Source: Candidatus Thiodiazotropha sp. 'RUGA' (GTDB lineage: Bacteria; Pseudomonadota; Gammaproteobacteria; Chromatiales; Chromatiaceae). From it: a stretch of 64,000 nucleotides of DNA. Below are positions 24,374-41,007 of the stretch, in pieces. The notes beneath the pieces were generated by a model, which worked only from the letters and a program-made list of their open reading frames with translations, did no database searches and had not been told where the DNA came from. Both the position numbers and the translations under genes were made by a program. The DNA lies in the NCBI GenBank assembly GCA_016842065.1, contig JAEPDS010000012.1, forward strand, positions 1 through 64,000, given 5' to 3'. Position 1 is the first letter of the stretch; each line of letters starts with the position of its first letter.

Positions 24374-25501
24374 TCACTGGTATTGAGCAAGTCCGGAGTA
24401 GCCTTCGTCTTCGGCTAACCCGGCAGGCCTGAAAACCTCAACCTTGCGAAAGAACTGATCGACCAGATAGATGCGTCCATCCTCATCAACATCGATGCCT
24501 GCCGGCAGCATGTACTTGGCCGGTCCTGCCGTTTCGGAACGCGTACCAAGATATAGCAGCAACTCCCCATTTGGGGTGAAGATCTGAAAATTTCCAAATG
24601 CGGCATCGACAACGTAAATATTCCCTGCGTTATCGGAGGCAATTCCTTTGGGGCGCGAGAATTGACCCAAGTGTCTTCCCGGTGTCCCCCAGCTGCGGAT
24701 GTTTTCACCCTGTTGGTCGATCACCTGCACCCGGAAGTTACCGCCATCGGTGACGTAGAGGTGGTTGTTTTGACCTACAGCGACATCTCTGGGGAGATTG
24801 AATTCACCGGATTTTGTACCGCGACTACCAAGGGTGCGCAGGTGTGATCGACTGTGTGTATCGTATACCGCAACACGATGCCGTTTCGATTTAACCCCAC
24901 CGATATCAACCACAAAGACGGTACTGCCGTCGCCACTGACTTCAACGCCGCTTGGTCGGTCCATCTCATTGGAAAGATCAATGTCGTAACGCCATTTACC
25001 GTTGCGATCGTAGAGCATTACCTTTTTTAAATGAATATCGCACACATAGAGATTTCCCTGGTTATCTGTAGCAACTCCCAATGGCTTGAACAAGTCGCTG
25101 GCATCTCCACTGTCACCAATGATGATGGATTCACCCGAGACAAAATCGAGAGCAAACACAACCCGATGTACAGTATCACTGATAAACAGTCGTCCCTGGT
25201 GAACGGCGATATCGAAAGGTTTGGCAAAAGCGTAGCCATCACGCTGGTCGGCGCCGGTGAGAATACTCTTCAGGCGTGACATTTTGTCTGCGAGTTTGAC
25301 CGCACCTGTGCCAAATATCGTTCTTTCATAATAGTAACGGGGTTGATCAGGTGGTGCCGGAAAGGCGATGGGTTTCGGTTTTTTCGTTTCAGGACTACCA
25401 GCGCATCCTGCGATCAGTATTAGGATTACAAAAGGAAGGATTGCTTTCGAACCCTTTACTATAAGATCATTGTATGAGCGTGTGTTGAGTTTATATCTCA
25501 T
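24374..25501 (-). CDS. NHL-repeat beta-propeller lipoprotein
   Basis: With the ATG at 25501 the protein has 375 residues. The lipoprotein signal ends in LILIAGC. Residues about 95-370 hold five to six NHL repeats with recurring LYVCDIHLKKVMLYDRNG-, LYVTDGGNFRVQVID- and IYVVDAAFGNFQIF-type strands, which fold into a six-bladed propeller. It is a paralogue of the lipoprotein at 35695-36762 and divergent from a triheme cytochrome. NHL-propeller genes also accompany multiheme filament cytochrome genes such as omcS in Geobacter, so a periplasmic or outer-membrane scaffold role is plausible. Confidence 0.85.
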   Translation of the reverse strand: MRYKLNTRSYNDLIVKGSKAILPFVILILIAGCAGSPETKKPKPIAFPAPPDQPRYYYERTIFGTGAVKLADKMSRLKSILTGADQRDGYAFAKPFDIAVHQGRLFISDTVHRVVFALDFVSGESIIIGDSGDASDLFKPLGVATDNQGNLYVCDIHLKKVMLYDRNGKWRYDIDLSNEMDRPSGVEVSGDGSTVFVVDIGGVKSKRHRVAVYDTHSRSHLRTLGSRGTKSGEFNLPRDVAVGQNNHLYVTDGGNFRVQVIDQQGENIRSWGTPGRHLGQFSRPKGIASDNAGNIYVVDAAFGNFQIFTPNGELLLYLGTRSETAGPAKYMLPAGIDVDEDGRIYLVDQFFRKVEVFRPAGLAEDEGYSGLAQYQ

Positions 25502-25525
25502 CGATAGTACCAATTAATAACTGTG

Positions 25526-26560
25526 ATGAAGCTGATTAAACGATTACATCAATACCTGAACCTGTTGTGGTTGATGCTGTTTTCCGCATTAGGCTGTCTC
25601 CAGGTCACTGCATCCGAGCTAACAGATGCTGCCATTGATACCGATCAGAATGGGTATCTGCAAAAAGGGCGTGATATCTACAATTTTCACTGCTACTTCT
25701 GCCATGGCTATGCGGGAGACGCCCAGACCCTGGCGGCCAAATTCCTCAATCCGCCTCCCAGAGATTTCACTGCTTCAGATCCCAACGAGCTGACCCGTGA
25801 GCGTATGCAGCATTCCATACGTGACGGTCGTCCTGACACTGCCATGAAACCTTTCAAAGGTATTCTTACGGACCAGGAGATAGAGGCGGTTACCCGGTAT
25901 GTGCGCGCTGCATTCATCGTCGGTAAGCTACCGAATACCCGCTATCATACAGTTGAAAACGGTTGGTACGATCATCAGCGTTTTCGTAACAGCTACCCCT
26001 TTGCCACCGGTGAGATTCCCCTGGACACGCCGGTCGGCTCCTTGAGCGAAAATCAGCAGCAGGGGCTGAGGGTCTACCTCAGTAGCTGTATCAGCTGTCA
26101 TGACAGGTCTCAGGTTGACGATCCAACCGTCACCTGGGAATCGGTCGCCATCTCCTATCCAAGACTTGGATTTAAGACGGGTGACAGTCTGCTGCCACCC
26201 GATGCCCAATCCGGCGCCAGCCCTTTTGCCAAACACGATATTGCACCCTCCATTTCCGATTTGACCTCCACTGAGCAACTCGGCGAGACACTATTCCAGC
26301 AGAACTGTGCCTTTTGCCACGCTGCAGACGGTACAGGTAAAAACTGGATCGGCACTTTTCTAAGACCCCATCCGCGGGATTTGACCGATCCAAAGATCAT
26401 GACCAATTTGAGCAGCGAGCAAATCAAATTGGTTATACGCAACGGTCTCGTAGGTACATCGATGCCGGCCTGGAAATCGGTGCTGACCGATGCACAGATC
26501 GATGCGCTAGTTCATTATATTCATCGTGCATTTCACCCACTGGCCGGGTTAGCTGATTGA
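25526..26560 (+). CDS. Triheme c-type cytochrome made of class I-like domains
   Basis: 344 residues with a signal peptide (MKLIKRLHQYLNLLWLMLFS) and three CXXCH motifs: CYFCH, CISCH and CAFCH. The first and third lie in class I cytochrome c folds (GRDIYNFHCYFCHGYAGDA, then QNCAFCHAADGTG with later PHPRDLTDP and IRNGLVGTSMPAW, where Met is the likely sixth ligand). It is periplasmic. Its 3' end overlaps the convergent triheme gene at 26533 by 28 bp. It and its convergent neighbour are probably electron shuttles of the adjacent locus. Confidence 0.85.
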   Translation: MKLIKRLHQYLNLLWLMLFSALGCLQVTASELTDAAIDTDQNGYLQKGRDIYNFHCYFCHGYAGDAQTLAAKFLNPPPRDFTASDPNELTRERMQHSIRDGRPDTAMKPFKGILTDQEIEAVTRYVRAAFIVGKLPNTRYHTVENGWYDHQRFRNSYPFATGEIPLDTPVGSLSENQQQGLRVYLSSCISCHDRSQVDDPTVTWESVAISYPRLGFKTGDSLLPPDAQSGASPFAKHDIAPSISDLTSTEQLGETLFQQNCAFCHAADGTGKNWIGTFLRPHPRDLTDPKIMTNLSSEQIKLVIRNGLVGTSMPAWKSVLTDAQIDALVHYIHRAFHPLAGLAD

Positions 26561-27558
26561 GTTCTGGATGCGCCAGGCCGGATGAACACTTGGTATACAT
26601 ACTCCACGATATCAGCGATCTGCTGTGCCGATAGCACCTTTTCCCATGCTGGCATATCAGTTCCCCGAGTCCCTTCGGCGATGGCGGTGTAAAGTCTCGG
26701 CCTGTTCAAGGTGTGGCGCGCCGCATCGTGTTGAAAATTTCGTGGTTTGGGTAGAATGAAATAGGCGCGGGGACCCTTGCCGTCACCCTTGACGCCATGG
26801 CAGGCAGCACAATTCTGCAGGTAATACCGTTGTCCTCTGGATGCATCGCCTGAGAGATCCTGGTCAAGTTGTTTTTCCATCTCTTGTGCAATTTTTATGT
26901 TGATATCTTCAATCTTATCTGTTTGCTTGCCACGTTCTGACATGAAAGCCTGTCTTACGTAGTTGACCACCTGTGATATGTCATGATCACTCAATTGAGA
27001 TGCAAAGCCTGGCATCGCTGTATCGGCCTTACCGTATCGCACTACTTTCAACATGTGATCAAGGGAGAGTTGCTCGGCAGTTCCAGGAACTGTGAAGTTT
27101 CTCGGTGGCGGCTTGAGATTGGTTAGTGTCCAACGGGCACCGCTGCCATCGTCACCGTGACAGACAGAACAGTTTTCAGCATACAGGCGCCGACCCTGTT
27201 CACCCTCTTCAACTGTTGTTGGCCGCATCATGGTGATGGTTATGTAATCAACGATTCCTATTATCTGTTCGCTTGTTAGCTGATTTTTCCAGCCTACCAT
27301 GGCAGTACCGGGGCGGCCTTCTGTTATTGAGTTGATCATGCGATCACGGTTCAACTCAACCGCTGACTGAGGAGAGGAAAAATCTCTTGGTGGCGGGATC
27401 ATGCTGCCACGTGCGCGGCTCTTCCCATCTCCCCGGTCACCGTGACAGACAGAACAGTATTCTGCATAGAGCCCGGCTGCATCTACCACTTTTCCCATTG
27501 CAAGAGAGTGGGCAGACAGCAGGGTTAGAAAAAGTACTACAACAATTCTTTGTCTCAT
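26533..27558 (-). CDS. Triheme c-type cytochrome with three tandem class I domains
   Basis: The ATG at 27558 gives 341 residues and a signal peptide (MRQRIVVVLFLTLLSAHSLA). Three near-identical modules each begin with a heme site (EYCSVCHGDRGDGKS, ENCSVCHGDDGSG, QNCAACHGVKGDGKG), continue with PPPRNF/PKPRNF, and carry a later Met in GTAMVGW, DTAMPGF or GTDMPAW as likely axial ligand. It has a predicted sigma-54 promoter at 27613-27628 and shares its control region with the large rightward operon. It is probably a high-potential periplasmic electron carrier of the conduit. Confidence 0.88.
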   Translation of the reverse strand: MRQRIVVVLFLTLLSAHSLAMGKVVDAAGLYAEYCSVCHGDRGDGKSRARGSMIPPPRDFSSPQSAVELNRDRMINSITEGRPGTAMVGWKNQLTSEQIIGIVDYITITMMRPTTVEEGEQGRRLYAENCSVCHGDDGSGARWTLTNLKPPPRNFTVPGTAEQLSLDHMLKVVRYGKADTAMPGFASQLSDHDISQVVNYVRQAFMSERGKQTDKIEDINIKIAQEMEKQLDQDLSGDASRGQRYYLQNCAACHGVKGDGKGPRAYFILPKPRNFQHDAARHTLNRPRLYTAIAEGTRGTDMPAWEKVLSAQQIADIVEYVYQVFIRPGASRTQSANPASG

Positions 27559-27612
27559 CTTGATATAAACGTTTCGCAAAGAAGATTATTCACAACGCAT
27601 CAAAACATTCAT

Positions 27613-27835: not shown

Positions 27836-27851
27836 TGGCGCAGTTATTGCT
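27836..27851 (+). promoter_or_regulatory. Sigma-54 promoter of the large cytochrome operon
   Basis: TGGCGCAGTTATTGCT fits TGGCRCR-N4-TTGCW with correct GG-N10-GC spacing. Predicted start about 27862, 45 nt before the tetraheme gene at 27907. Confidence 0.75.
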
Positions 27852-27906: not shown

Positions 27907-28746
27907 ATGAACTACAGACTCATCTTAATCGGCATCGTATCGATGCTGCTATTCGCAGCCAACAGCCACGCGGCTGTACGGGGAAGTGATCATGACCTGT
28001 CGGCTGGAGGTACAGCGCAAGCAACTACTTCCGCCACCACCGAGGTCTGTGTTTTCTGTCATACACCTCATGGCTCCAACACCGCTGTCAGTGCGCCCTT
28101 GTGGAACAAAGCGAGTCCTGCAACCGCCTACACGCGCTACTCTGATCTGGGGACCGCAACCCTCGATGGGTCAGAAGTTACCGTCGGATCAGTATCCCTG
28201 GCGTGTCTATCCTGTCATGACGGGACCCAGGCTATGGATGTGGTTGTCAATGCGCCTGGTTCCGGTGGCTGGACAGCAGCAGGAGCGGAACTCGATGCGG
28301 TTGCCATTTCAGCGATGGCAAACACAGGCGGTGCACCCATTCCCATGTTGGGTACCGATCTGAGAAATGACCATCCGATCAGTATTGCCTATGCCGGTGG
28401 TGGTTGTGGTGTGGGTGTTGATCCCTGCACACCTTCCACGGGTGCAACTGCCGACACTGACTTCAATGATGCACAGCACGCCACCATTAATGGCAACAGT
28501 CAGTGGTGGATCGATGTGGCCTCATTCGATAGCACGGGTGATGGTATCCGCGATGCGACAGGTACCGCTGACACCCGTGAAAAATCTGACATGATTCTCT
28601 ATACCCGGGACTTCACCGGTGTTGATGGACCATCTGTGGAGTGCGGGAGTTGTCATGATCCCCATGAAGATAGCGCACGACCAGTCAGCTTTCTGCGTAT
28701 TGCCAATACAAACAGTGATGTCTGTCTGGCATGTCACATCAAGTGA
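27907..28746 (+). CDS. OmcE-like tetraheme c-type cytochrome (doubled CXXCH family)
   Basis: The start at ATG 27907 follows GGGGAGGAG; upstream codons would overlap the sigma-54 promoter. The product has 279 residues with a signal peptide (MNYRLILIGIVSMLLFAANS). Four heme sites follow: CVFCHTPHGS (from residue 48), CLSCHDGTQ, CGSCHDPHED and the C-terminal CLACHIK. The pattern HDLS, CVFCHTPHG, PLWN, CLSCHDGT, NDHPIS, CxSCHDPH, CLACH is the doubled-CXXCH family that includes the Geobacter tetraheme filament protein OmcE. The same module begins the 11-heme protein at 36759. It is the first gene of the operon and is followed by a chaperone and a barrel. A secreted, possibly polymerising electron conductor is the best guess. 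Confidence 0.85.
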   Translation: MNYRLILIGIVSMLLFAANSHAAVRGSDHDLSAGGTAQATTSATTEVCVFCHTPHGSNTAVSAPLWNKASPATAYTRYSDLGTATLDGSEVTVGSVSLACLSCHDGTQAMDVVVNAPGSGGWTAAGAELDAVAISAMANTGGAPIPMLGTDLRNDHPISIAYAGGGCGVGVDPCTPSTGATADTDFNDAQHATINGNSQWWIDVASFDSTGDGIRDATGTADTREKSDMILYTRDFTGVDGPSVECGSCHDPHEDSARPVSFLRIANTNSDVCLACHIK

Positions 28747-28758
28747 TGCCAGCTAGTC

Positions 28759-29895
28759 ATGAGTAACATAGATCACAGAAGTGGGCTAGGTGTGGGGGCG
28801 GTGGTAACCGCCGGAGAATTGCAATGGCGGTTATCCTCAGCCCCGTGTTTTGCAGAGTCTCAGGGCGATCACTCCCGTGGTCTGACAGTGATCATCGTCC
28901 TGCTGATGCTGACTATCGGTCTTTTTCCAGGTTCAGTGCATACAGCGGAGGGTGAGAGTAAAGCTGATCAGGTTTTTGCCACCGTGAATGGTGAATCCAT
29001 TCAGTTATCTACCTATCGCTCTATTCTGCATATGGGGGCGCGACAACGGTTTTACCATGGTCAGCCCCCTGCGGAGGAACTCAAGGCCTACAGGAAGGAG
29101 GTAGGGGAGCAGTTGGTGGAAGAGATGGTGCTTCACCAGGAAGCACTGCGGCGTGGAATCGAAGCCAACTCAGAACGTGTCAAACATGAAGTGGAAAAAA
29201 ATATCAAACGCTTGCAAACACAAACCGGGTGGCAGGACGCAAAAAATAAAATGTTGCCCATTCTGCAAGAGGGATTGGCGCGAAACGACAGGATCAGGCA
29301 ACTTCAGGATCAGTTCAGGAGTGAGGTAACGCTGCCTGACGAAACTGAATTGGAAACTTTTTATCAAGCCAATCTCGATAAGTTCACATCACCACCACAG
29401 ACACGCATTTCAATGATTTTACTCAAGGTGCCACCCTGGGGAGGCGCCGACCAATGGCGCACAAAGCGAGATGAGCTTACGCAGATAAAACATAAAATAA
29501 CTAAGGGAATGGAATTTAGTGAGGCTGCGAAGCGTTATTCCAATGATGGTTCAGCCAGCAGTGGTGGCGACATGGGCTATCTGCATCAGGGAATGCTTGG
29601 GACGCAAGCTGAACAAGCAATCTCCAAACTGGGGATCGGTGAAATTTCGGATCCGATAACCCTGCTGGAAGGGGTTGCTCTGTTTCACCTGATTGAAAGA
29701 TCGGATGCGCGTATAAATCCATTGGAACAGGTTCGTCAACGCGCTGTAGATCTGTTGATGAGAGAGCGTCGTGAAACTGTTGTTTCAGAGCAGAAAAGAC
29801 GCTTACGCATTAAAGCGGATATCCATTATTTGGTCCCTGATTACTATGAACAACGGCAGGAGGTGAGGGGCCGTAGTAATAAGAACAAATCTTGA
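28759..29895 (+). CDS. Parvulin-type peptidyl-prolyl isomerase (SurA/PrsA-like chaperone)
   Basis: 378 residues. A hydrophobic signal segment lies at about residues 42-61 (GLTVIIVLLMLTIGLFPGS); the long N-terminal extension suggests that the real start may be downstream of 28759. The SurA N-domain-like part starts with VFATVNGESIQLSTYRSIL. A parvulin domain at about residues 205-310 contains TRISMILLKVP, AAKRYSNDGSASSGGDMGYL and IGEISDPI. It is periplasmic and would help fold the cytochromes or the outer-membrane barrel encoded on either side, 12 and 36 bp away. Confidence 0.88.
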   Translation: MSNIDHRSGLGVGAVVTAGELQWRLSSAPCFAESQGDHSRGLTVIIVLLMLTIGLFPGSVHTAEGESKADQVFATVNGESIQLSTYRSILHMGARQRFYHGQPPAEELKAYRKEVGEQLVEEMVLHQEALRRGIEANSERVKHEVEKNIKRLQTQTGWQDAKNKMLPILQEGLARNDRIRQLQDQFRSEVTLPDETELETFYQANLDKFTSPPQTRISMILLKVPPWGGADQWRTKRDELTQIKHKITKGMEFSEAAKRYSNDGSASSGGDMGYLHQGMLGTQAEQAISKLGIGEISDPITLLEGVALFHLIERSDARINPLEQVRQRAVDLLMRERRETVVSEQKRRLRIKADIHYLVPDYYEQRQEVRGRSNKNKS

Positions 29896-29931
29896 TCGGG
29901 AACATCGTAAAGCGATGGCCGAGTCCAGGTG

Positions 29932-31710
29932 ATGAAAAAAGGTGGGCTGTTGATCTTGTTTACGGGAACACTCATTACGACGACCGGGGAGGTTCATACT
30001 ACTGAATTTAATCAGTCAGGTGCCATTCTATCCGGTAGTTTAGGAATGCGATTCCGCGAAGTGATTCCTGATTCCGGCAAGTCATCCTTTCATCGTGCTT
30101 ACACCGGTGAGGTGATGGCGCGAAACCACATCTGGATGCCCTGGTTTGGGAATTGGAAAGGGAGATTGTTATCGAGTTGGGAGAATAAGGAAAATGGTCG
30201 TGAGACTGAAAATCAAATTCTCTCTGGTGCGGCTGAAGTCAATCTGTTTCATTTGAGTAAGTTTCCGTTTTCCGCATTTGTTGATGTCAAGGACAGTCGA
30301 ATCGATGACAGTGAACAACTCGAACCTGGTCGAGAGGAACGACTGACTCGCTTAGGCTTGCGTCAATCCTATTCACCGGAATTGGGTGGTATGAACGCCA
30401 CCCTCAATTTATTTCATGACGATCGCAAGGATTTACTGACTGGCGATACAGAAAAGAGTACACGTGGAATAGTAAGCGGTTATATGCATCGGGGCTCTCA
30501 TCGCATAACGACACTCATGGTGGCGAATGATCGGAGCAGGAGCCTGGTTACGGATCGTCATAAGGATTGGCAGTCGGATCTGACACATAGCTACAATCCG
30601 ATGAGTAATTTCAGCTTGATCACAAGTCTCGGTGTCAGTGGAAGTGATACCGAAGATATTTTGGGAGAGAGTGAGTCATCTCAGAAAAGAGTGGCTACAA
30701 ACTTGATGTGGAGAGCAACAACACTGCCAGTGACATTACGTAGCGACATTTATTTCAAGTCGCTTGATACCAGCTCGGCTTCCAACATAGATAAAGAGGA
30801 GAATGAGACAAGAGGTAATCTCTCATTGACCTATCTGCCGTATGATCGTTGGCGAATACGAGGTAGATTGGGGGTACTGGTACGTTCAGGTGATGTTGAT
30901 GAAGAACGCTATATTCAATCAATCACCACAGATTATACATCGAAAGTAAGTCCTCTAGGAGCATTTACTTACGGTTATGGTATTGGGACAGGATTCTCGA
31001 ATGAGATTAATACCGATGACGAAGATGAATGGATCGGTCAGGCAAGCTTTTCTCATAATCTAAATCGCACCTGGCAATATGACTGGTTTGGACCAATCGG
31101 TGCATCATTTACGTTTGGCCAGGATTTGAGTTATGAAAACTCTTCTCTTGAAGAGGATCTTGGGACATTGGTTAATAGAATCTCCTACAGTTTGAGTTCG
31201 ATCGGCGAGGATCGGTCAACAAATCTCAATCTTGTACTCTACGACTCCCGTAATTCCGGGCGCAACGATTTTGTTACCCAGAATGTAAGTGTCAATGCAA
31301 TACATAACCAACGGCTTTCCCGATATTCTGATTTCGGCATCACCTATAATGTCAATTTCACAAAGCAGCGGGGGGATAATTCTACTGTTGATGACGATGA
31401 TTTTTTTGATGTGGATAAACAATTTCGAAACGACGATACAGAATACAGCAGTCTGGAAGTATTCTTTCACAGCAATCGCTTGTTCAAGGTTCGAAATCTT
31501 CGCTTTGCCAGTCGTCTCAGAGCCTCCAGCAGATCTCTCTATCTGGACGATATGGATGAGGATCATGGTAGTGAATATTTCTGGGAGAATCGGATTGACT
31601 ACACCATCGGTAAACTCGATATCGATTTTCGAACAACCTGGGTTGAACGGCCTTCTGTGGAAAACGGAGGCACCAAGACCATTACCTTGAATGTGCGACG
31701 ACTGTTCTAA
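29932..31710 (+). CDS. Outer-membrane beta-barrel protein of a cytochrome conduit
   Basis: 592 residues from ATG 29932, with a signal peptide (MKKGGLLILFTGTLITTTGE). The remainder shows alternating hydrophobic/polar strands with acidic loops throughout (for example RISYSLSSIGEDRSTNLNLV, KLDIDFRTTWVERP) and ends in Phe (TLNVRRLF), the signal for outer-membrane insertion by Bam. Length and strand density would allow more than 20 strands. It has no CXXCH. Standing between cytochrome genes, it could be a porin sheath comparable in role to MtrB/PioB or to export barrels of filament cytochromes, although I see no direct MtrB motif. Confidence 0.8.
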   Translation: MKKGGLLILFTGTLITTTGEVHTTEFNQSGAILSGSLGMRFREVIPDSGKSSFHRAYTGEVMARNHIWMPWFGNWKGRLLSSWENKENGRETENQILSGAAEVNLFHLSKFPFSAFVDVKDSRIDDSEQLEPGREERLTRLGLRQSYSPELGGMNATLNLFHDDRKDLLTGDTEKSTRGIVSGYMHRGSHRITTLMVANDRSRSLVTDRHKDWQSDLTHSYNPMSNFSLITSLGVSGSDTEDILGESESSQKRVATNLMWRATTLPVTLRSDIYFKSLDTSSASNIDKEENETRGNLSLTYLPYDRWRIRGRLGVLVRSGDVDEERYIQSITTDYTSKVSPLGAFTYGYGIGTGFSNEINTDDEDEWIGQASFSHNLNRTWQYDWFGPIGASFTFGQDLSYENSSLEEDLGTLVNRISYSLSSIGEDRSTNLNLVLYDSRNSGRNDFVTQNVSVNAIHNQRLSRYSDFGITYNVNFTKQRGDNSTVDDDDFFDVDKQFRNDDTEYSSLEVFFHSNRLFKVRNLRFASRLRASSRSLYLDDMDEDHGSEYFWENRIDYTIGKLDIDFRTTWVERPSVENGGTKTITLNVRRLF

Positions 31711-31754
31711 TGATTGACCCTGTAGATAGCTATTCCAATTTGGAGGTGCAAGTG

Positions 31755-32153
31755 ATGCGGATAAAAAATCAAATGGTATTGTTCTTGTTTTCAATACTGT
31801 TGATATTCGCATTCATCGTCGATGACGCAAGTGCGGAGTATGGGGATGTGGTGATCAATAATTATTCTGATGAAGCCGGTATGAGACCGGTAGTTTTTCC
31901 CCATTGGTTTCACAGGATACGTTTCCGTTGCAAGGTGTGCCATGCCGATCTGGGATTCAAGTTCCAAGCCGGTGGTAACGACATTACCATGCTTAAGATA
32001 ATCGATGGCGAATACTGTGGCGCTTGTCATAATGGCGACATCGCCTGGTCGGTGGAAAATTGCAATATCTGCCACTCGGCAACACCTGGTATCAATACCC
32101 AGGTACATGAAAGCACTCTGCAAAAACTGATTGCGCCAGAAGCGGCTAAATGA
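31755..32153 (+). CDS. Triheme c7-type cytochrome, PHWFH type (copy 1)
   Basis: The start at ATG 31755 has GGAGG eight bases upstream, giving 132 residues with a signal peptide. Three heme sites are CKVCH, CGACH and CNICH, with additional histidines in FPHWFHRIRFRC. The pattern FPHWFH, RCKVCHADLGF, ITMLKIIDGEYCGACHNG, AWSVENC is the c(7)-type triheme domain also found in periplasmic shuttles and nanowire-associated proteins of metal reducers. The paralogue at 35302 is close (FPHWFHRIRFRCKVCH is identical). Periplasmic electron transfer is likely. Confidence 0.88.
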   Translation: MRIKNQMVLFLFSILLIFAFIVDDASAEYGDVVINNYSDEAGMRPVVFPHWFHRIRFRCKVCHADLGFKFQAGGNDITMLKIIDGEYCGACHNGDIAWSVENCNICHSATPGINTQVHESTLQKLIAPEAAK

Positions 32154-32166
32154 TGGAGTTGAAGTA

Positions 32167-32985
32167 ATGACGAACACCTGTGCAAGATTGCTTCTAATAC
32201 TGAGTCTTACTCATGTTATGCCGGTATTTTCGGCCGATATCTCTCCAGTAGGCAAAGTCAATGTCGATGATGTGGCAACTGATTCGAAAGCGGATTCTGC
32301 GGCGATGTCTGCTGCTGACAATGTCAAGAAAGATAGTGAAATTATTTCTACGGACGAGAAAGAGTCAGGTAAAGAAAAGGAATCACAGGAAGCACGATCA
32401 AACGTCAAACAGATTCCGCTTGATGATAAAGCTCAGGAACAGCCAACTAATACAGATGGTTTAGCAGTCATGTCGCAGAAGAAACTGGCCTATAAGCGTA
32501 GCCCAAACAGTTTCAATCGCCTGATGAAGCCGCCGTCTAAACGAAATCCACCACCAGCTAAAGATGGTATACACGATCCTGATAATGACGGTACATATGT
32601 CCTACAACCACCCAAAGACTCGTTCAGTCAACTGAGTAAGTCGAATTCAGGGAATCGTGTGGATTGGGTTGCGGCCCTGCAAAAAGGAGAAATTAATCCA
32701 CGTTATGATCGTCTTGATCCCGAAAAAGTGCCGATCATCCTCGACTTGAATATCGTACGTGAAGTCAAAGGCAGTATGCCTGATGTGGTTTATCCACATA
32801 AACAACATACAGAGTGGCTGGATTGTTCAAACTGTCATCCAGCAATTTTTATCCCCATGAAAGGGGCTAACAATATCAGCATGGCTTCGATTCTATTGGG
32901 TGAAAAATGCGGTGTATGTCATGGCAAAGTCGCATTTCCGGTTTCGGAATGCAGAAAGTGCCACTCCAAGAATAAATCGGAGTAG
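32167..32985 (+). CDS. Triheme c7-type cytochrome with long N-terminal linker (copy 1 of the DGIHDPDN type)
   Basis: 272 residues from ATG 32167. After the signal peptide comes a charged, low-complexity stretch of about 100 residues rich in Asp, Ser, Lys and Glu, then KDGIHDPDNDG, and a C-terminal c7 domain with CSNCH, CGVCH and CRKCH plus the ligand histidines in YPHKQHTEWLDCSNCHPA. The downstream paralogue at 34735 shares the DGIHDPDN and HTEWLDCSNCH signatures but lacks the long linker. The linker may bridge the periplasm. Confidence 0.85.
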   Translation: MTNTCARLLLILSLTHVMPVFSADISPVGKVNVDDVATDSKADSAAMSAADNVKKDSEIISTDEKESGKEKESQEARSNVKQIPLDDKAQEQPTNTDGLAVMSQKKLAYKRSPNSFNRLMKPPSKRNPPPAKDGIHDPDNDGTYVLQPPKDSFSQLSKSNSGNRVDWVAALQKGEINPRYDRLDPEKVPIILDLNIVREVKGSMPDVVYPHKQHTEWLDCSNCHPAIFIPMKGANNISMASILLGEKCGVCHGKVAFPVSECRKCHSKNKSE

Positions 32986-32988
32986 TGA

Positions 32989-33831
32989 ATGTACTTGCGC
33001 AGCATGATGATCAGTGTAAAGGTGGTTACAATACTATCCATGCCTGCAACTATTCATGCTGAAGTTGATTCTGAGAAACAGGGCGCTGACCTTATTAAGC
33101 GCAAAGCGCAACTCGGATACCAGATGCTGGATCAACTCGATACAGATAAGGCGAAACAGCTGAAAGCAACTCTAACAAAAATGGTATCACCATCGAATGT
33201 TAAAAGCATAGATTTACATCTGCAAAGTATGGACAGGCTATTGGCTCAGATAGCAGAGCTCTACAGACAACGACATGACCGCAAAACACTACAGAAGCAA
33301 CTAGAAAAATCACGATATATCCAAAGCCGTGAGGAGATAATGACTCTGGTGGAAACATTTGAACATAGCGCCAAAAAAAAGCAGAGCGAAGTGGATTCGT
33401 TTCCACTGATTAACCAGGACTTTGTTGATCAACTGGCGCACGCTGAGTCTCTTGCAGACGCAGGTGACTACAGTCAAGCAATTACCGTTTTGAGTAAGGC
33501 AAAAAACAAGGTGATTCAAGCGATAGCCATGATCAATAAAAATCGCACAATAGAGTACAAGCTTGTATTTGAGTCTGTAGCAGAAGAGTACGAATATGAG
33601 TTGCGCCGTTATGCCAGTCAGAAAATGTTACTGCAACTTGCGATTCACGAAAAAAAACCGGATTCAGGTAGAGTGCAAAAGATAGAACAAGACCTGGCAA
33701 TTGCTGACGCTCTACACCTGGAGGCACGTACTCATGCACAATTGGAACGGTATCATGAGGCCTTGAGCAGTCAGGAGATGGCTGTCGGTAAACTTAACTC
33801 AGTTTTACGACTGATGGGCTACTTCTTTTAA
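32989..33831 (+). CDS. Exported helical protein of unknown function, paralogue 1
   Basis: 280 residues with a signal peptide (MISVKVVTILSMPATIHA) and an almost entirely helical, coiled-coil-like remainder. No cysteines for heme. The signature VFESVAEEYEYELRRY at about residues 185-205 corresponds to KFASSEEEYVYELDRN in the next gene, so the two are paralogues. TPR-like helix pairs (LADAGDYSQAITVLSKA) are visible. The position between two pairs of c7 cytochromes suggests a scaffold that spaces or positions them; function otherwise unknown. Confidence 0.6.
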   Translation: MYLRSMMISVKVVTILSMPATIHAEVDSEKQGADLIKRKAQLGYQMLDQLDTDKAKQLKATLTKMVSPSNVKSIDLHLQSMDRLLAQIAELYRQRHDRKTLQKQLEKSRYIQSREEIMTLVETFEHSAKKKQSEVDSFPLINQDFVDQLAHAESLADAGDYSQAITVLSKAKNKVIQAIAMINKNRTIEYKLVFESVAEEYEYELRRYASQKMLLQLAIHEKKPDSGRVQKIEQDLAIADALHLEARTHAQLERYHEALSSQEMAVGKLNSVLRLMGYFF

Positions 33832-33848: not shown

Positions 33849-34730
33849 ATGCGGTGCCTCGGCATAAAATCGCTTATTAACATAATTATATTTACATTGA
33901 TATCAATATCAATGATCTATGCTGAGGAAAACAAAAAACCGAAATTCTCTCTTGAACGCCAAGCTGTCGAGAGCCGGCTCAACAATGTTGAAAGGCTTAT
34001 CTACCAATCTTCCGGTGCGCGACGAGTTGCTGGCGGAAGTGATCAGGCAAAAGCCTTACAGGAGCAAGCAGCCAACCATTTCGAAAAAGCTCAACTCTAC
34101 TTCAAGTCAAGTAATATGCAGCTGGCCAATGATGAACTACAGCAGGCAACGCTGATCATGTTCCAGGCAATCAGACTGGTGGGTACAGGGGAGGTAGGTG
34201 AAAGTAAACTGAAGAGTGATTATCAAAAAAAGCGTAATAGTCTCCAGGCATTACTAGAAGCGTTACAACGTGTTGCTGTTGAAAAACAGTCGCCAAGCCC
34301 TGAAACGGACAAGATTATTCAGTATGCGGAAGCGGCGGACAAACTTGCAGCAGAGGGTAATATTAAGCAGGCGCAACAGCAACTGAATATTGCCTACGAT
34401 ACAGTTAAGCAAGAAGTGGAAAAACTACGCTCAGGCGATACCCTGGTACGTACGCTGAAATTTGCCAGCAGTGAAGAGGAGTATGTTTACGAACTCGATC
34501 GTAATGATACCCACTTCATGTTGGTAAAGTTGTTACTTGAAGACCGAAACATAAATTCAAAAACTCAGGTGGCAGTTGATCAGTTACTCTTACAAGCCCG
34601 TCAACTACGTTCTCAGGCAGAAGAGGACTCAGAAGGAGGTGATTTCGAAGAGGGGATAAAAAAGCTGGAACAATCCACCAGTCAGATCGTACGTGCTATC
34701 AGACGTGCGGGTGTCTATATTCCTGGATAG
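33849..34730 (+). CDS. Exported helical protein of unknown function, paralogue 2
   Basis: 293 residues with a signal peptide (SLINIIIFTLISISMIYA) and long helices with TPR-like repeats (NHFEKAQLYFKSSNMQLAND; AADKLAAEGNIKQAQQQLNI). It shares the EEYxYEL signature and overall size with the preceding gene. No heme motifs. Together the two paralogues form the centre of the mirror-symmetric c7 block. No named family recognised. Confidence 0.6.
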   Translation: MRCLGIKSLINIIIFTLISISMIYAEENKKPKFSLERQAVESRLNNVERLIYQSSGARRVAGGSDQAKALQEQAANHFEKAQLYFKSSNMQLANDELQQATLIMFQAIRLVGTGEVGESKLKSDYQKKRNSLQALLEALQRVAVEKQSPSPETDKIIQYAEAADKLAAEGNIKQAQQQLNIAYDTVKQEVEKLRSGDTLVRTLKFASSEEEYVYELDRNDTHFMLVKLLLEDRNINSKTQVAVDQLLLQARQLRSQAEEDSEGGDFEEGIKKLEQSTSQIVRAIRRAGVYIPG

Positions 34731-34734
34731 GCTT

Positions 34735-35295
34735 TTGAAATATAGAGCAAAACTCTTACACAACCACGGCTCCGTTTTTGTGATGCTGATGGTAGTGATG
34801 TGTTGTGGAGCGGCTCACAGCGATACGCCGGTGTGGAAATCGATTTCCGATGACGGGATTCACGATCCTGATAATCCTGCAATTTCTCTCTTGCAGGAGC
34901 CGGTCACAGCACTCTCTATACTGCCGTTTGATACTGCCGGCAACCAGGTGCTTTGGGTTAGAGCGCTACAGGAGGGCTATATCGATCCAAGGACAAATAT
35001 ATATCCCGATACCAACATCAAAGTACTTGATCTCGATATCATCATGCCCCGTACAGGTTCTGCCAAATATGTTCGTTTTCCCCATCGTGCACATACCGAG
35101 TGGCTCGATTGCAGTAACTGTCACGATGCCATCTTCAAGGCTAAGGCCGGCGCCACTCCGGTCACGATGCTAAAGATTTTATCTGGAGAGTATTGTGGAC
35201 GATGTCATGGTGCAGTTGCCTTTCCACTGACTGAATGCGATCGCTGTCATAGCGTAAGCAGTGCAACTCAGCCTGGTGTGGTCAAGGGGCAATGA
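34735..35295 (+). CDS. Triheme c7-type cytochrome (copy 2 of the DGIHDPDN type)
   Basis: The start is uncertain. ATG 34693 would overlap the previous gene and lengthen the signal peptide; TTG 34735 gives a plausible n-region and hydrophobic core (SVFVMLMVVMCCGAAHS). ATG 34783 is a third choice. Heme sites are CSNCH, CGRCH and CDRCH, preceded by the DDGIHDPDNP motif and HTEWLDCSNCHDA. It is a shortened paralogue of the protein at 32167. Periplasmic electron carrier. Confidence 0.82.
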   Translation: MKYRAKLLHNHGSVFVMLMVVMCCGAAHSDTPVWKSISDDGIHDPDNPAISLLQEPVTALSILPFDTAGNQVLWVRALQEGYIDPRTNIYPDTNIKVLDLDIIMPRTGSAKYVRFPHRAHTEWLDCSNCHDAIFKAKAGATPVTMLKILSGEYCGRCHGAVAFPLTECDRCHSVSSATQPGVVKGQ

Positions 35296-35301: not shown

Positions 35302-35682
35302 ATGGTATTGGTAGTAATAATTCGATGGTGGCTGTTGCTTGCAGCCCTGATGGTGACAACCATGGCCAGTGCGGAATATGCTGATGTCATTCTCAATCGT
35401 TATGCAGAAAAGGAGGGCATGCGGCCAGTCATCTTTCCGCACTGGTTTCATAGAATTCGCTTCCGTTGCAAGGTCTGTCATAACGAATTGGGGTTTGAGA
35501 TGCGAGTGGGAGCCAACGATGTCACCATGAGCGATATCATCGACGGTCGCTTCTGTGGTATGTGCCACAACGGTGAAGTCGCCTGGTCTGTAGAAAACTG
35601 CGATCTCTGTCATTCAGGTAAGAACGGGCTTAAAAGTGGCATATTCGGTGGTCATCAGACTGGAGGGCCTGGCCATTGGTAG
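35302..35682 (+). CDS. Triheme c7-type cytochrome, PHWFH type (copy 2)
   Basis: 126 residues with a signal peptide (WWLLLAALMVTTMASA). Heme sites are CKVCH, CGMCH and CDLCH, with FPHWFHRIRFRCKVCHNELG and AWSVENCDLCHSG, near-identical to the copy at 31755. The tail is Gly- and His-rich (IFGGHQTGGPGHW). It lies six bases after the previous gene. It closes the mirror-image block. Confidence 0.87.
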   Translation: MVLVVIIRWWLLLAALMVTTMASAEYADVILNRYAEKEGMRPVIFPHWFHRIRFRCKVCHNELGFEMRVGANDVTMSDIIDGRFCGMCHNGEVAWSVENCDLCHSGKNGLKSGIFGGHQTGGPGHW

Positions 35683-35694: not shown

Positions 35695-36762
35695 ATGAAA
35701 TATCCAAGCTTACTTCTTATGCTGTGTTTGCTGCAGGCCTGTACGGAGGCGCCGAAACGTCTCTACCTGAATCAAACTGATGGAGAGGTAGCGGAGCAGC
35801 TCGAAGTGTGGCCAAGAAATGGTGATGTACCGCGCTATGCCTACGCGGGTGAGTTGACTGGGCAGAATAATTTTCGAACTTCACCGGACCATGAAGCCAG
35901 CCGCACACTGAAAATACTTTCCTGGCTTGTCGGTCTCGATCCGACGCGAGCCGAGAAGCCTGTAATCCTACAACGTCCCCAGGGTGGAGTTGTCGATGAA
36001 CAGGGAAGGATCTATGTCAGCGATGTCAGCCGCCAGGCGGTTTTTGTCTTTGATCCTCTTTTGGGTGAACTGCATGTCTGGGAGTGGGCTGATAGATCAA
36101 AACGATTCCGTTCCCCGGTCGGTTTGGCGATTCGTAAGGATGGGGAAGTATTGGTGGCGGATTCCGAACTTGGACAGGTTGTACGTCTTTCAGCGGATGG
36201 CAAACCACAGGGTGTTTTCGGTTATGGCGATCTGCAGCGCCCGACGGGGATTGCACTGGATCATGACAGCGGGCGGGTTTATGTTGCTGATACGCGAGCC
36301 AATGACATCAAAATCTATGATCAGCATGGAGAACTGATCGATAAATTCGGCCAGGCCGGCGATCAGGCCGGGCAGCTCAATGCGCCTACCTATATTACTG
36401 TCTCAGAGGGGCGTGTTTATGTTACCGATACCCTGAATGCACGAATTCAAGTCTTCGATACCCAGGGGCGCTGGCTGCAGCTGATCGGTGAACGGGGACA
36501 CTATATCGGCAACCTAAATCGTCCCAAGGGTATCGCAGTGAGTCAGGACGGCTTGCTCTATGTCGTTGAATCCTACTACGACTCCCTGCTTGTGTTTGAT
36601 CGGAATGGAGAATTTCTGATGCCGATCGGTGGCCCTGGAAGTCAGCCCGGTGAATTCATGTTGCCAGCAGGCGTCTGGCTTGACGACCATGGCCGAGTCT
36701 ATGTATCCGACATGCTTAATGGCAGGATCTCAATTTTTCAGTTTCTGGGAGCGGACCAATGA
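35695..36762 (+). CDS. NHL-repeat beta-propeller lipoprotein
   Basis: 355 residues with lipoprotein signal LLLMLCLLQAC. Six NHL-type blades occupy about residues 95-350 (GRIYVSDVSRQAVFVFD, RVYVADTRANDIKIYD, RVYVTDTLNARIQVFD, LLYVVESYYDSLLVFD, RVYVSDMLNGRISIF). It is a paralogue of the leftward lipoprotein at 24374. The 3' end overlaps the 11-heme gene by ATGA. It lies directly before the large cytochrome, as NHL genes do beside Geobacter filament cytochromes; a docking or assembly role is inferred. Confidence 0.87.
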   Translation: MKYPSLLLMLCLLQACTEAPKRLYLNQTDGEVAEQLEVWPRNGDVPRYAYAGELTGQNNFRTSPDHEASRTLKILSWLVGLDPTRAEKPVILQRPQGGVVDEQGRIYVSDVSRQAVFVFDPLLGELHVWEWADRSKRFRSPVGLAIRKDGEVLVADSELGQVVRLSADGKPQGVFGYGDLQRPTGIALDHDSGRVYVADTRANDIKIYDQHGELIDKFGQAGDQAGQLNAPTYITVSEGRVYVTDTLNARIQVFDTQGRWLQLIGERGHYIGNLNRPKGIAVSQDGLLYVVESYYDSLLVFDRNGEFLMPIGGPGSQPGEFMLPAGVWLDDHGRVYVSDMLNGRISIFQFLGADQ

Positions 36763-39155
36763 GGCGGGATCTACTGTTGGCCTGCCTTCTGTCTGTTGTC
36801 TCCGGCGATCTCAACGCCGAACGAATCTCGGACATCCGCAACACCAAACACAATCTCTCGATCAGCGGGCCTGGGCCGGTTAGAGCGACCAGCGAATCCG
36901 AGGTTTGCGTCTTCTGTCATACGCCCCATGGGGCTTCGGACATACCTGCCGCACCACTCTGGAATCGGGCGCTTTCCGGAGCCACTTACACACCCTACAC
37001 CTCCACCTCCATCGATGCCCAGGACACCACGGCAGAGCCGGGTGGCAGCTCCAAACTCTGTCTCTCATGTCATGACGGCACGCTCGCGATCGGCGCCGTC
37101 AACGTTGCAAATGGACAGGCCAACGCCAGTATCTCTCTGCAGGGCACAGCAGCCGGTGGCACCATTCCTGACGGCAGCGGTGCATTGAGTGGATTTACTC
37201 GCCGCATCGGTGTGGACCTGACCAACGACCATCCGATCTCATTCACCTATGACAGTGCACTGGCGCTGGCCGATGGTGAATTGCGGGATCCTGCCATTGA
37301 ATCCCATATCGCAACCCGGGCGCCAGGCCAAAATCCCAAACCTTCGGTGCCCCTGGAATCGGATCGTCTTGAGTGTGTCAGTTGCCATGATCCCCATATA
37401 CGGGATACCGATCCTAACAAAAACATTAAATTCCTCAGACTCAATCGTTTTCAGGAAGGCATACCGGGCAGCAGCTTTTCCGAGATCAATGATATCGTCT
37501 GCCTGGCCTGTCATGATAAATTGGCACAGCGCTGGGCGGACTCCGCCCATGCGGATCCGTCAGTCGCGGATGAGACCTATAAAACCGGGCCGGCGGATTT
37601 GAGGGAGTTTCCGTCCGGGATCGCCGTCTGGCAGGCCTCCTGCCTCAACTGCCATGACACTCATACCGTGCAGGGATCGCGACGTCTCTTGAGGGAGGGT
37701 AGCGATGCCCTCGGAGGGCCAACACAGCCCAGACTCGGTGGGGCCGCCGCTATTGAGAGTACCTGCTACCAGTGCCATACCAACGATGCCTCATCAGTGC
37801 TGAATTTCTCGCTTGAGGTGCCCAACATCGAGGATGATTTCTCCCTGGCCAGACATATGCCGATCAGCAGTCTCGATCAGGCCGCTGGTGTTGAGGTGCA
37901 CGATATCGCTGATGCGGATTTCAGCGAAAATCCACTTCTCCTCGGCAAGGGTGATCTCAATAACCGACATGCGGAATGTACCGATTGCCACAATCCTCAC
38001 CGATTACAGCGCAATACCCTGTTCAATGCCAGCGGTTCCAATCAGACCGGTACTCACGAACATGGCGCTGCCCATTCCAATATCGCTTCGGGAGTATTGC
38101 GTGGTACAACCGGTGTCGAGCCGGTCTACGGCTCAGCCGGTTTTTTTGATCTGCCCTTGAGCTATACCCTCAAACGTGGCGATGGTGGTGATGGCGCAAG
38201 CGATCTGGCGATCAGCCCATGGGTCACCCGGGAATATCAGATCTGCCTCAAATGTCACTCCGATTACGGCTACGATGACAACAATCTCTATCCAATCGGT
38301 AACCGTCCGGCCTTGGGTGATTCCATCGGTACGACTACCCCCGGCACCAATGGTCTGACCCAGTACACCAATCAAGCCAGAGAGTTTCAGGCCCCGATCG
38401 CCCATCAGGGATCGGGTACACCCGGGGACAGTGGTGCAGACACTGACTATCTGACCAATAACCAGCGTTCCTGGCATCCGGTGATTGCAGCTACGGGTCG
38501 AAGTGGATTGCAACGCAACCAGGGTGATAACGACATCTCGAGTAACTGGGTGCCGCCGTTCGATGACGCTGTGGGCAGTCAGACCATGTACTGCAGCGAC
38601 TGCCATGGATCAACTACCGCCGCGGGTACCGTGGTGCCGGATGGTGGCGATAACGGTAAGCCCTGGGGCCCACATGGTTCAAACCATAACTTTATCCTTA
38701 AGGGTGACTGGTCAGCCGACACCGGTACCGGGCGTCCCCAGGACCTCTGTTTTAAATGTCACGACTACGCTGTCTACGCCGGCGGCGATCGTGGAGTTGA
38801 CAGTGGTTTTGGACGTGGTGATAACCTCCATGCTGACCACTTCGAGCGCATCACCGGCAACCGGGTGAAATGCATGTGGTGTCATGTGGCCGTACCTCAC
38901 GGTTGGAAGAACAAGGGACTGCTGGTCAATCTCAATGATGTTGGTCCCGAGGCCGGACTGCCGCCTGGCACCGAAGTACCGATTCAGTCCAATGCAGAGG
39001 TCTATAGCCAGGAACCTTACTATTTCAATGCCAAGCTCAAGGTCATCAACTTTGCCCAGTCGGGAGATTGGCGCCCGGACAACTGCGGCTCTGCCAGCAG
39101 CAATCCGGATGTCGGCCGGGACTGGATGGGGGCGGTATGCCAGAATCCACCCTGA
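36759..39155 (+). CDS. Eleven-heme c-type cytochrome (doubled CXXCH family)
   Basis: 798 residues with a signal peptide (LLLACLLSVVSGDLNA). CXXCH sites in order are CVFCH (residue 50), CLSCH, CVSCH, CLACH, CLNCH, CYQCH, CTDCH, CLKCH, CSDCH, CFKCH and CMWCH. The first four reproduce the entire tetraheme module of the protein at 27907 (CVFCHTPHG, PLWN, CLSCHDGT, NDHPIS, CVSCHDPH, CLACHDK), followed by seven hemes in a different arrangement. It has no transmembrane anchor after the signal. It is probably exported to the periplasm or the cell surface, acting as terminus or cap of the conduit. It overlaps the genes on either side. Confidence 0.9.
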   Translation: MRRDLLLACLLSVVSGDLNAERISDIRNTKHNLSISGPGPVRATSESEVCVFCHTPHGASDIPAAPLWNRALSGATYTPYTSTSIDAQDTTAEPGGSSKLCLSCHDGTLAIGAVNVANGQANASISLQGTAAGGTIPDGSGALSGFTRRIGVDLTNDHPISFTYDSALALADGELRDPAIESHIATRAPGQNPKPSVPLESDRLECVSCHDPHIRDTDPNKNIKFLRLNRFQEGIPGSSFSEINDIVCLACHDKLAQRWADSAHADPSVADETYKTGPADLREFPSGIAVWQASCLNCHDTHTVQGSRRLLREGSDALGGPTQPRLGGAAAIESTCYQCHTNDASSVLNFSLEVPNIEDDFSLARHMPISSLDQAAGVEVHDIADADFSENPLLLGKGDLNNRHAECTDCHNPHRLQRNTLFNASGSNQTGTHEHGAAHSNIASGVLRGTTGVEPVYGSAGFFDLPLSYTLKRGDGGDGASDLAISPWVTREYQICLKCHSDYGYDDNNLYPIGNRPALGDSIGTTTPGTNGLTQYTNQAREFQAPIAHQGSGTPGDSGADTDYLTNNQRSWHPVIAATGRSGLQRNQGDNDISSNWVPPFDDAVGSQTMYCSDCHGSTTAAGTVVPDGGDNGKPWGPHGSNHNFILKGDWSADTGTGRPQDLCFKCHDYAVYAGGDRGVDSGFGRGDNLHADHFERITGNRVKCMWCHVAVPHGWKNKGLLVNLNDVGPEAGLPPGTEVPIQSNAEVYSQEPYYFNAKLKVINFAQSGDWRPDNCGSASSNPDVGRDWMGAVCQNPP

Positions 39156-40198: not shown

Positions 40199-41007
40199 GC
40201 GATTACAACCTATGGTTCTATCTCGCGGCGATTAGCTATCACCTGCTGGCTGTTTTATCGATTCAGGAACTGATCGATCGATGCAACGACTACAGTCGTT
40301 GGATCGGAGGCTTGGTTGTGACAGGGACTCTGTTTGTCACGATAGCCATCGCCTGGCGTTGGCTGAGTTATGGTCAGGGTCCCTTTCTGACCATGCATGA
40401 GATCCTGATCAGTAGTCTGTTCAGCCTGTCTCTTATCTATGGGTTGGCCTATGTTTTCGTGCCAATTACCCGCATCGGTGCACCATTCGCCTCACTTACC
40501 ATGCTGTTGCTGTTCTATTGGGCTGTAAAGAGCGACCCTGGTATCAGGCTTTTACCTCCGACCTATGAAACGCCTTGGCTCTGGGTGCATGTCATTTTTG
40601 GGAAGCTTTTTCTTGGATCCTGTCTGCTCGCAACCAGCATTGGTATATGGCTGCTCACGCCAGTAAAGCGTTTCGTCCGCTCTGTACGTTATCTGTGGGT
40701 GCCACAGCAACTTGAACGGCAAGTATGGATATGGCTCTCGATAGCCTTTCTGTTTCACACTGTGATGCTGATCGCGGGTGCAGTCTGGGCGCAGGATGCC
40801 TGGGGACGCTATTGGGATTGGGACCCCCTTGAAACCTGGGCCTTTATCACCTGGCTCTGCATGGCGATAACCCTGCACATGCGTTCAGTCTTTCCGCCCG
40901 GACCGCGCGCGCTTTCAATGCTGGCAATGGGAGTGTTCGTTCTGGCCTTTCTGACATTTTTCGGGGTGCCGTTCATCAGTGTCAACCCCCATCAGGGGGC
41001 AGTATGA
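40195..41007 (+). CDS. CcsA/ResC-like heme handling protein of cytochrome c assembly
   Basis: The ATG at 40195 with GGGAGGG before it overlaps the ResB stop by 4 bp and gives 270 residues. About eight membrane helices are visible. The heme-handling tryptophan-rich motif is present as WGRYWDWDPLETWAFITWL, flanked by His-containing helices (HVIFGKLFLGS; FLFHTVMLIAG; ITLHMRSVF). With ResB it forms the System II synthetase. Being encoded within the cytochrome operon suggests a dedicated assembly line for the operon's own multiheme products. Confidence 0.88.
   Translation: MSDYNLWFYLAAISYHLLAVLSIQELIDRCNDYSRWIGGLVVTGTLFVTIAIAWRWLSYGQGPFLTMHEILISSLFSLSLIYGLAYVFVPITRIGAPFASLTMLLLFYWAVKSDPGIRLLPPTYETPWLWVHVIFGKLFLGSCLLATSIGIWLLTPVKRFVRSVRYLWVPQQLERQVWIWLSIAFLFHTVMLIAGAVWAQDAWGRYWDWDPLETWAFITWLCMAITLHMRSVFPPGPRALSMLAMGVFVLAFLTFFGVPFISVNPHQGAV

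Follow-up and report, generated by a model that had tools for sequence, protein, structure and literature searches.

The 64,000-nucleotide stretch of Candidatus Thiodiazotropha sp. 'RUGA' analysed here (contig JAEPDS010000012.1, positions 1 to 64,000; the window) carries a run of 19 genes on the + strand (27907-48196, gaps of at most ~50 bp), headed by a trio of tetraheme cytochrome, prolyl isomerase and predicted outer-membrane barrel. The first 11 genes of the run correspond to the Uet cluster (undecaheme electron transfer; uetABCDEFGHIJ) published for Tenderiales. Judged by its sequence the locus is this known system, which the original prediction had sensed correctly without recognising it. 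The uet locus is probably a dedicated system for building and wiring an extracellular electron-transfer apparatus; its parts, their order and their family memberships can be read directly from the genes.

The trio is real: UetB (28759-29895) begins 12 bp after UetA, and UetC begins 36 bp after UetB. As had been claimed, UetA has four CXXCH motifs and a signal-peptide-like start, it is followed by a parvulin-type protein (Rotamase and SurA_N_3 domains) and by a barrel according to the structure model, and NHL-propeller proteins (35695-36762, +, and 24374-25513, -) and a cytochrome with 11 CXXCH motifs lie in the same locus. Placement of the tetraheme in the OmcE family is likewise upheld by profile search (9e-43 to 7tfs). 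The features are as follows.

27836-27851, +: sigma-54 type -24/-12 promoter-like site (sole window match to TGGYRCN5TTGCW)
27907-28746, +: uetA, secreted tetraheme c-type cytochrome, OmcE family (CXXCH motifs, Paired_CXXCH_1, OmcE similarity)
28759-29895, +: uetB, SurA-N/PpiC prolyl isomerase, probably periplasmic (Pfam Rotamase 3.2e-14, SurA_N_3 8.4e-11)
29932-31710, +: uetC, predicted 28-strand outer-membrane beta-barrel (AlphaFold2 model from 49 sequences)
31710-32153, +: uetD-like triheme c7 cytochrome (TIGR04257 nanowire_3heme 1.7e-18)
32131-32985, +: uetE-like triheme c7 cytochrome with long N-terminal extension (TIGR04257 2.2e-17)
32989-33831, +: uetF-like copy 1, helical/TPR-like by position and a weak Pfam match (ANAPC3 0.0039, below cut-off)
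33849-34730, +: uetF-like copy 2 (Pfam scan, relatives at other loci)
34693-35295, +: uetG-like triheme c7 cytochrome (TIGR04257 4.8e-19); the listed start overlaps the preceding gene and the true start may be further in
35302-35682, +: fourth triheme c7 cytochrome (TIGR04257 1.7e-19)
35695-36762, +: uetH/I-like NHL beta-propeller lipoprotein (NHL 2.7e-33; lipobox LQAC read from sequence)
36759-39155, +: uetJ, 11-heme cytochrome, 798 aa, with OmcE/UetA-like N-terminal part (11 CXXCH)
39068-40198, +: ResB-like cytochrome c biogenesis protein (PF05140, 24.5 bits against a cut-off of 24.6)
40081-41007, +: CcsA-type cytochrome c assembly protein (PF01578 3.3e-22)
41004-41543, +: TPR protein (weak CcmH/CycH TPR match, 1.6e-5)
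41540-43786, +: PAS histidine kinase (family search)
43796-45154, +: NtrC-type sigma-54 activator, probable regulator of the unit (Sigma54_activat 1.7e-71)
45204-45737, +: Sel1-repeat protein (family search)
45782-46909, +: Reg_prop beta-propeller protein 1 (PF07494 3e-21)
46910-48196, +: Reg_prop-like beta-propeller protein 2 (similarity to propeller protein 1)
24374-25513, -: associated upstream NHL lipoprotein (NHL; lipobox-like N-terminus by reading)
25523-26560, +: associated 3-heme cytochrome with cbb3-III-type domains (family search)
26533-27579, -: associated 3-heme cytochrome with cbb3-III-type domains (family search)

Correspondence with the published Uet cluster

The founding description of Uet, in Tenderiales, is reportedly that of Eddie et al. 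(2022, mSphere). Naming of the uet genes in the window follows secondary descriptions (PMC10734462, PMC12575090, PMC13386937 and PMC5371394); for these, as for every source cited below, statements refer to the covered parts of the text. In PMC10734462, UetA is an extracellular tetraheme, UetB an isomerase, UetC a barrel, UetDEG periplasmic trihemes, UetHI NHL proteins and UetJ an undecaheme cytochrome; Uet is termed a porin-multiheme cytochrome (porin-MHC) complex, present in Tenderiales and in six Gallionella, four of which gave a BLAST match for UetC. UetJ and its porin are reported from the Sphaerotilus-Leptothrix group (PMC13386937), and uetABCDEFGHIJ is described as a conserved electron-uptake cluster (PMC12575090). 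Ca. Tenderia electrophaga has neighbouring locus tags for three trihemes, an intervening TPR gene and an undecaheme protein, and its trihemes are among the most highly expressed genes on the cathode (PMC5371394). In the Ca. Tenderia record (L049) the order tetraheme-isomerase-barrel-triheme-triheme is as in the window, and its UetA falls into one tree with that of the window (44% identity over the best segment).

The expectation of a system that exports and assembles a heme protein holds in part: heme-protein export and outer-membrane electron transfer are the likely job, but a new type of conduit is not supported, as the trio heads the published uet cluster.

Conservation and spread of the locus

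Relatives were collected with an alignment of two tetrahemes as query against one genome per species (84,980 species; near records may be omitted). This gave at least 586 stretches and at least 574 confirmed relatives, 80 of which were kept, and the locus counts rest on those 80. In 70 the isomerase ORF (open reading frame) starts less than 1.5 kb after the tetraheme; a barrel-size ORF is next in 65 and a relative of the first triheme next in 61. The trio was scored as an isomerase start within 1.5 kb followed by an ORF of more than 1.3 kb starting less than 0.6 kb further on, with misses at contig ends included; the 81st row of the trio table is the genome's own second cluster (L007), without isomerase. 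Among loci with enough sequence, relatives were found of the isomerase in 71/77, the first triheme in 66/73, the second in 65/72, the middle gene in 58/67, the third triheme in 60/66, the fourth in 42/64, the NHL protein in 55/59 and the 11-heme protein in 46/58. Upstream of uetA, an NHL relative is seen in 48/64 and relatives of the two 3-heme cytochromes (25523-26560 and 26533-27579) in 38/64 such loci. The arrangement had been thought non-standard. This is rejected for the trio and the core by their recurrence in the fetched relatives (trio in 65/80) and by the published uet cluster. Most of the 19-gene run is standard as well (ResB/CcsA in 18 of the 20 genomes read downstream of UetJ); only its tail is unusual (1/20).

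The UetA-family profile was run against 369 sampled genomes of the class, this one among them: it matches 46 at 1e-30, and full-length UetA (1e-80, own count from the listed best values) is present in 39. Within the genus, UetA proper is found in two of 22 genomes, this one and G004 (94% identical), and the last gene of the run (46910-48196) likewise in two of 22; window positions 24378-48183 are colinear with G004 (76% in one alignment). The nearest fetched UetA relatives are other gamma-, beta- and Magnetococcales records, with tree bootstrap unsettled. This patchy presence, together with the distance of the nearest relatives, fits horizontal gain of the locus, though loss elsewhere is also conceivable. 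The record L059, titled Caldilineales (Chloroflexota), has a UetA that groups within the gammaproteobacterial ones, close to Ca. Tenderia, either by transfer or from a mis-binned contig.

A second, smaller cluster lies ~37 kb further on, on the minus strand of the same contig (C12 84.7-92.9 kb; L007 711-8872). It encodes an NHL protein, a 214-aa tetraheme, a triheme lipoprotein, a small triheme, a 671-aa barrel-like protein, an NHL lipoprotein and a 603-aa 11-heme protein with an OmcE-like start. Its tetraheme is closer to OmcE than UetA is (6.4e-35, single sequence). It differs from uet in lacking the isomerase, and its barrel-like protein has no recognisable kinship to UetC (probability 2.4% by hhalign of a single sequence with a profile). 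Shorter OmcE-like tetrahemes of this kind occur in 14 of the 22 genus genomes. One of the genus (G007) shows a local expansion, with 11 OmcE-like matches spread over several contigs and partly in tandem.

UetA belongs to the OmcE family

UetA is 279 aa long (ATG at 27907, stop ending at 28746), with GGAGGAG ahead of the ATG and CXXCH motifs at residues 48, 100, 246 and 273 (Paired_CXXCH_1, Pfam, 1.3e-10). As a single sequence it matches OmcE (7tfs) at E = 2.9e-24 and 9yuq, a solved set of 16 chains titled 'putative multiheme cytochrome c', at 2.5e-23. A UetA-family profile of 78 rows, which includes the tetraheme of the second cluster, matches 7tfs at 9e-43 and 9yuq at 1.5e-40; it holds 78 of 82 candidates (the window, L007 and the 80 loci), L040, L050, L067 and L070 being omitted as long. 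Four heme motifs plus such a match to OmcE in one apparently secreted protein are far beyond chance, and membership of UetA in the OmcE sequence family is supported.

All four heme motifs and four distal His of UetA align with those of OmcE, and the distal His (29, 55, 156 and 253) are conserved in 77, 77, 78 and 78 of the 78 rows. With the four CXXCH, this points to four bis-His hemes, the ligation itself being inferred. The chain beyond the last CXXCH is two residues long in 87/87 UetA ORFs and 78/78 alignment rows, and OmcE and 9yuq end alike (ORFs with UetA as best match at 1e-30; duplicates within a locus counted separately). In the same loci the corresponding tail is 20-45 residues in the first triheme, 9-32 in the second and 5-52 in the third. 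The fixed UetA tail is consistent with a packing constraint at the C-terminal heme and with end-to-end stacking.

Among the matches listed in the literature covered, no statement ties UetA or Tenderia to OmcE filaments; Eddie et al. (2022) and Shen et al. (2025), the latter reportedly on the osc operon of G. sulfurreducens, stand outside that literature. The OmcE mention in PMC12575090 is a reference title. Novelty of the link between UetA and OmcE is not claimed.

The UetC barrel

The ATG of uetC is at 29932, with an alternative GTG start at 29929. The AlphaFold2 model (mean predicted local distance difference test, pLDDT, 90.7; pTM 0.74) has 28 long strands by own count, one 3-residue strand excluded, and its secondary structure has no separate plug domain; UetC is thus predicted to be an outer-membrane beta-barrel. 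The alignment behind it consists of the window protein and 48 of 64 barrel ORFs within its length range. Sequence searches gave little: the Pfam search of the window UetC returned no matches, none of the Pfam and NCBIfam porin families covers the UetC set (OMP_b-brl touches 1/49 members), and the UetC profile reaches only E = 0.2 against solved chains. No sequence link to MtrB/PioB was found, with 0/49 barrels matching MtrB_PioB (PF11854) at 0.01. Foldseek indicates a general barrel likeness, with query TM scores of 0.23-0.38 in the 50 listed of 797 PDB rows, among which the Mtr complex barrel 6r2q_B is top by this score (0.38). Of the 65 positional relatives, 64 form one linked set, Ca. Tenderia L049 included; this comparison covered the relatives only, and the window's own UetC matches relatives directly.

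Trihemes, NHL proteins and UetJ

Four triheme c7 proteins are recognised by TIGR04257 (NCBI name nanowire_3heme), a model that is above cut-off in 0/14 control genomes. Two uetF-like genes sit between the second and third, as the TPR gene of Ca. Tenderia sits between trihemes. One NHL protein occupies the H/I place ahead of uetJ (+) and another lies upstream on the - strand. The fourth triheme (35302-35682) and its relatives carry a fixed 22-residue tail, perhaps for docking. A genome of the same family (G032) has 19 TIGR04257 matches on several contigs, often two per ORF.

UetJ residues 6-216 match the OmcE chain 7tfs at 1.1e-22. By motif this OmcE-like unit is complete (hemes at 50, 101, 206 and 248 with matching distal His), and seven further hemes follow it. 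A UetJ on another contig of the L049 genome (Ca. Tenderia) is 58% identical to that of the window over residues 8-557 and 50% over 555-781. All 21 UetJ ORFs of 20 other genomes (one genome has two) have 11 CXXCH; the heme number rests on these full ORFs and the window, because cuts at locus ends affect 44/45 other ORFs. One locus (L132, genome G335) has two consecutive 11-heme UetJ-like genes followed by ResB/CcsA. No cluster protein reaches the cut-off of the DmsE/MtrA-type decaheme model (UetJ 43.9 against 192.2 bits).

Of the 39 genomes that have full-length UetA, 29 also contain, at most ~15 kb away on the same contig, an ORF of 811-963 aa that gives a second match to the UetA profile (own count). 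Among the other ten, the second match is on another contig in three (G225, G341 and G370), ~46 kb off in G238 and a short-frame match near the contig end in G399, and none of this size was found in five. As an OmcE-like unit with seven more hemes, UetJ could anchor or cap a UetA filament; the design, with the free end of the unit occupied, would suit either function.

Downstream genes and regulation

The downstream survey read as much as 20 kb next to UetJ; of the 29 genomes with close UetA and UetJ it covered 20, selected by hand, three of them cut by contig ends. ResB and CcsA relatives directly follow UetJ in 18/20, and the TPR protein is found in 17/20; of the two genomes without ResB/CcsA, one has a contig that ends ~2.8 kb past UetJ and the other has 20 kb of sequence. 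That ResB, CcsA and TPR are rare companions is rejected by this 20-kb reading (18, 18 and 17 of 20). Counts of 1-5/44 loci for ResB, CcsA, kinase, activator, Sel1 and propellers reflect 10-kb flanks that fall short of those places. The Uet unit accordingly exceeds the ten published genes, and ResB, CcsA and TPR are not named in the covered parts of the Uet descriptions. The whole tail (kinase, activator, Sel1 and two propellers) is in window order in 1/20 genomes (G096), and some tail genes lie upstream of uetA in L008, L011, L012, L016 and L034.

Across the own genome PF05140 (ResB) has no match at 0.001. Because System I assembly is present too (ccmB on C6), ResB and CcsA appear to form a second machinery for heme attachment, dedicated to the cluster. 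In two variant loci, L025 (Aromatoleum toluolicum) and L030 (Azoarcus sp. Aa7), a tetraheme, an isomerase and a barrel-size gene are followed within 10 kb by ResB and CcsA, with neither a first or second triheme nor a UetJ match in between.

TGGYRCN5TTGCW, the sigma-54 -24/-12 consensus, occurs once in the 64 kb, starting at 27836 (+), 71 bp ahead of the uetA ATG. By shuffling, 0.46 matches are expected and at least one is found in 38/100 shuffles. As the match count is not significant, only position and strand favour it. A looser pattern lies at -95 to -101 in 4/81 upstream 400-bp stretches of relatives (~0.8 expected by background) and is absent from the other 77. An NtrC-type activator is encoded within the run itself (43796).

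Just beyond the cluster, a PF11783 multiheme cytochrome (4.2e-73) is encoded at 17809-19395 (-). A Toprim/DUF3987 protein (3.4e-95) is found at 131-2551, in a stretch of lower GC content (0.40-0.48 across the first 12 kb), possibly a mobile element.

Possible roles of the Uet cluster

In a system that builds and wires an extracellular apparatus, UetB would keep UetA competent in the periplasm by isomerase-assisted folding, and UetA would cross the outer membrane at or through UetC and be presented on the outside, most likely polymerised like OmcE into a short or long chain. The trihemes would shuttle electrons between periplasm and barrel, and UetJ would connect the barrel end to UetA via its OmcE-like unit. 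An assembly role of isomerase, barrel and propeller is suggested by analogy with the osc operon of Geobacter, described as serving to fold, secrete and shape OmcS filaments (PMC13194489, PMC12977616). Electron flow could be uptake, as proposed for Tenderiales, or export; UetC may export UetA, hold a cytochrome, or both. The most specific version, in which Uet is an assembly line for an OmcE-type filament, with UetB folding, UetC exporting, UetA polymerising via its C-terminal heme, UetJ capping the inner end and wiring the filament to the membrane and ResB/CcsA maturing, is tentative and rather doubtful as a whole.

A number of observations weigh against polymerisation or against the wider role. 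Homology to OmcE alone is no proof of a polymer, because UetJ holds an OmcE-like unit within a larger protein. The tail of the fourth triheme is also invariant (22 residues in 44/44 ORFs), so that an invariant tail alone does not indicate a polymer. Small class III cytochromes may quite generally end in a short tail, as Ppc proteins do. UetA exceeds OmcE by ~47 aa, most of which lie between NDHP and the third heme. Its AlphaFold2 model is poor (pLDDT 62.8, 78 sequences), with 0 Foldseek matches at E <= 0.001, and a model of this quality speaks neither for nor against a fold like that of 7tfs. In named loci, all four distal-His motifs are present in 22/37 UetJ ORFs of at least 300 aa, and the first is absent from 12/37 (120-residue window), perhaps through cut or misplaced starts. 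In Ca. Tenderia the undecaheme gene is not differentially expressed between potentials (PMC5371394), and in the literature covered these expression data are the only experimental data on uet genes.

The nearest competitor is a static, filament-free porin-cytochrome conduit with UetC as a wide pore around trihemes or UetJ and UetA as a monomeric extracellular terminal cytochrome, which is quite conceivable, if on balance not expected. It is near the view of the Gallionellaceae paper, which describes a porin-MHC complex, its UetA extracellular and its UetDEG periplasmic (PMC10734462). A 28-strand barrel could hold a cytochrome, and 6r2q_B has the highest query TM score of the 50 rows listed. The TM value is low, however, and TonB-type receptors dominate the fold list; MtrB_PioB detects none of the 49 barrels and no DmsE/MtrA-type decaheme is above cut-off. 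UetA is moreover closest to the filament-forming OmcE, and the cluster has a dedicated isomerase and propellers, as does the osc nanowire operon (PMC13194489).

That same operon, with the functions assigned to its genes (PMC13194489, PMC12977616), favours UetC as an OscG-like secretion channel for UetA only, with electrons crossing the outer membrane by another system. Candidates for the crossing are the second OmcE-type cluster at 84.7-92.9 kb and a weak MtrB_PioB match in a 759-aa ORF (G000 contig C22 11684-12136, -), possibly another cytochrome-complex porin. Trihemes and an 11-heme cytochrome would be superfluous in a pure secretion device, and this explanation is unlikely. A periplasmic electron-storage or respiratory set, with nothing extracellular, would agree with cytochromes that carry export signals only, but is very improbable given the barrel model, the lipoprotein-like propellers, the OmcE homology and the published cathode link of the Tenderia homologues (PMC5371394).

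PMC12307469 describes as an open question how the membrane anchors and feeds cytochrome filaments. The widespread uet cluster joins an OmcE-family cytochrome, a barrel, a chaperone, its own ResB/CcsA pair and a larger cytochrome that begins with the same unit, which makes the question testable, and since records titled as named strains outside Geobacter carry uet (for example Dechloromonas hankyongensis XY25 and Herbaspirillum sp. ST 5-3) it lies open to ordinary genetics. If Uet were a filament assembly line, anchored OmcE-type nanowires would be found in some 10% of the species sampled from the class, well outside the circle of known metal reducers.

Comparison with known systems

MtrCAB and other porin-cytochrome conduits resemble Uet in combining a large barrel with periplasmic and outer multiheme cytochromes, but the MtrB_PioB model does not detect UetC, and Uet has trihemes instead of an MtrA-like decaheme. 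The osc (omcS companion) operon of G. sulfurreducens is alike by description, with a prolyl isomerase (OscH), a secretion channel (OscEFG) and a propeller-type morphology protein (OscD) beside a filament cytochrome. That cytochrome, however, is the hexaheme OmcS, dissimilar in sequence to OmcE (PMC9473688). The OmcE filament of Geobacter sulfurreducens (7tfs) shares with UetA its family, four hemes, aligned His ligands, the NDHP and PLWN motifs and a chain that stops two residues past the last heme motif; apart from the length difference given above, OmcE polymerises into a conducting filament, as UetA may do. Closest of all is Uet as published, with UetA, UetB, UetC, c7 trihemes, a TPR-like gene between them, NHL proteins and the 11-heme UetJ, in an order that agrees where published. 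Relative to the descriptions covered, the window has four trihemes rather than three (UetDEG), two UetF-like genes, and one NHL protein in the H/I place and one upstream rather than two (UetHI), and it continues with ResB, CcsA and TPR, then kinase, sigma-54 activator, Sel1 and two propellers.

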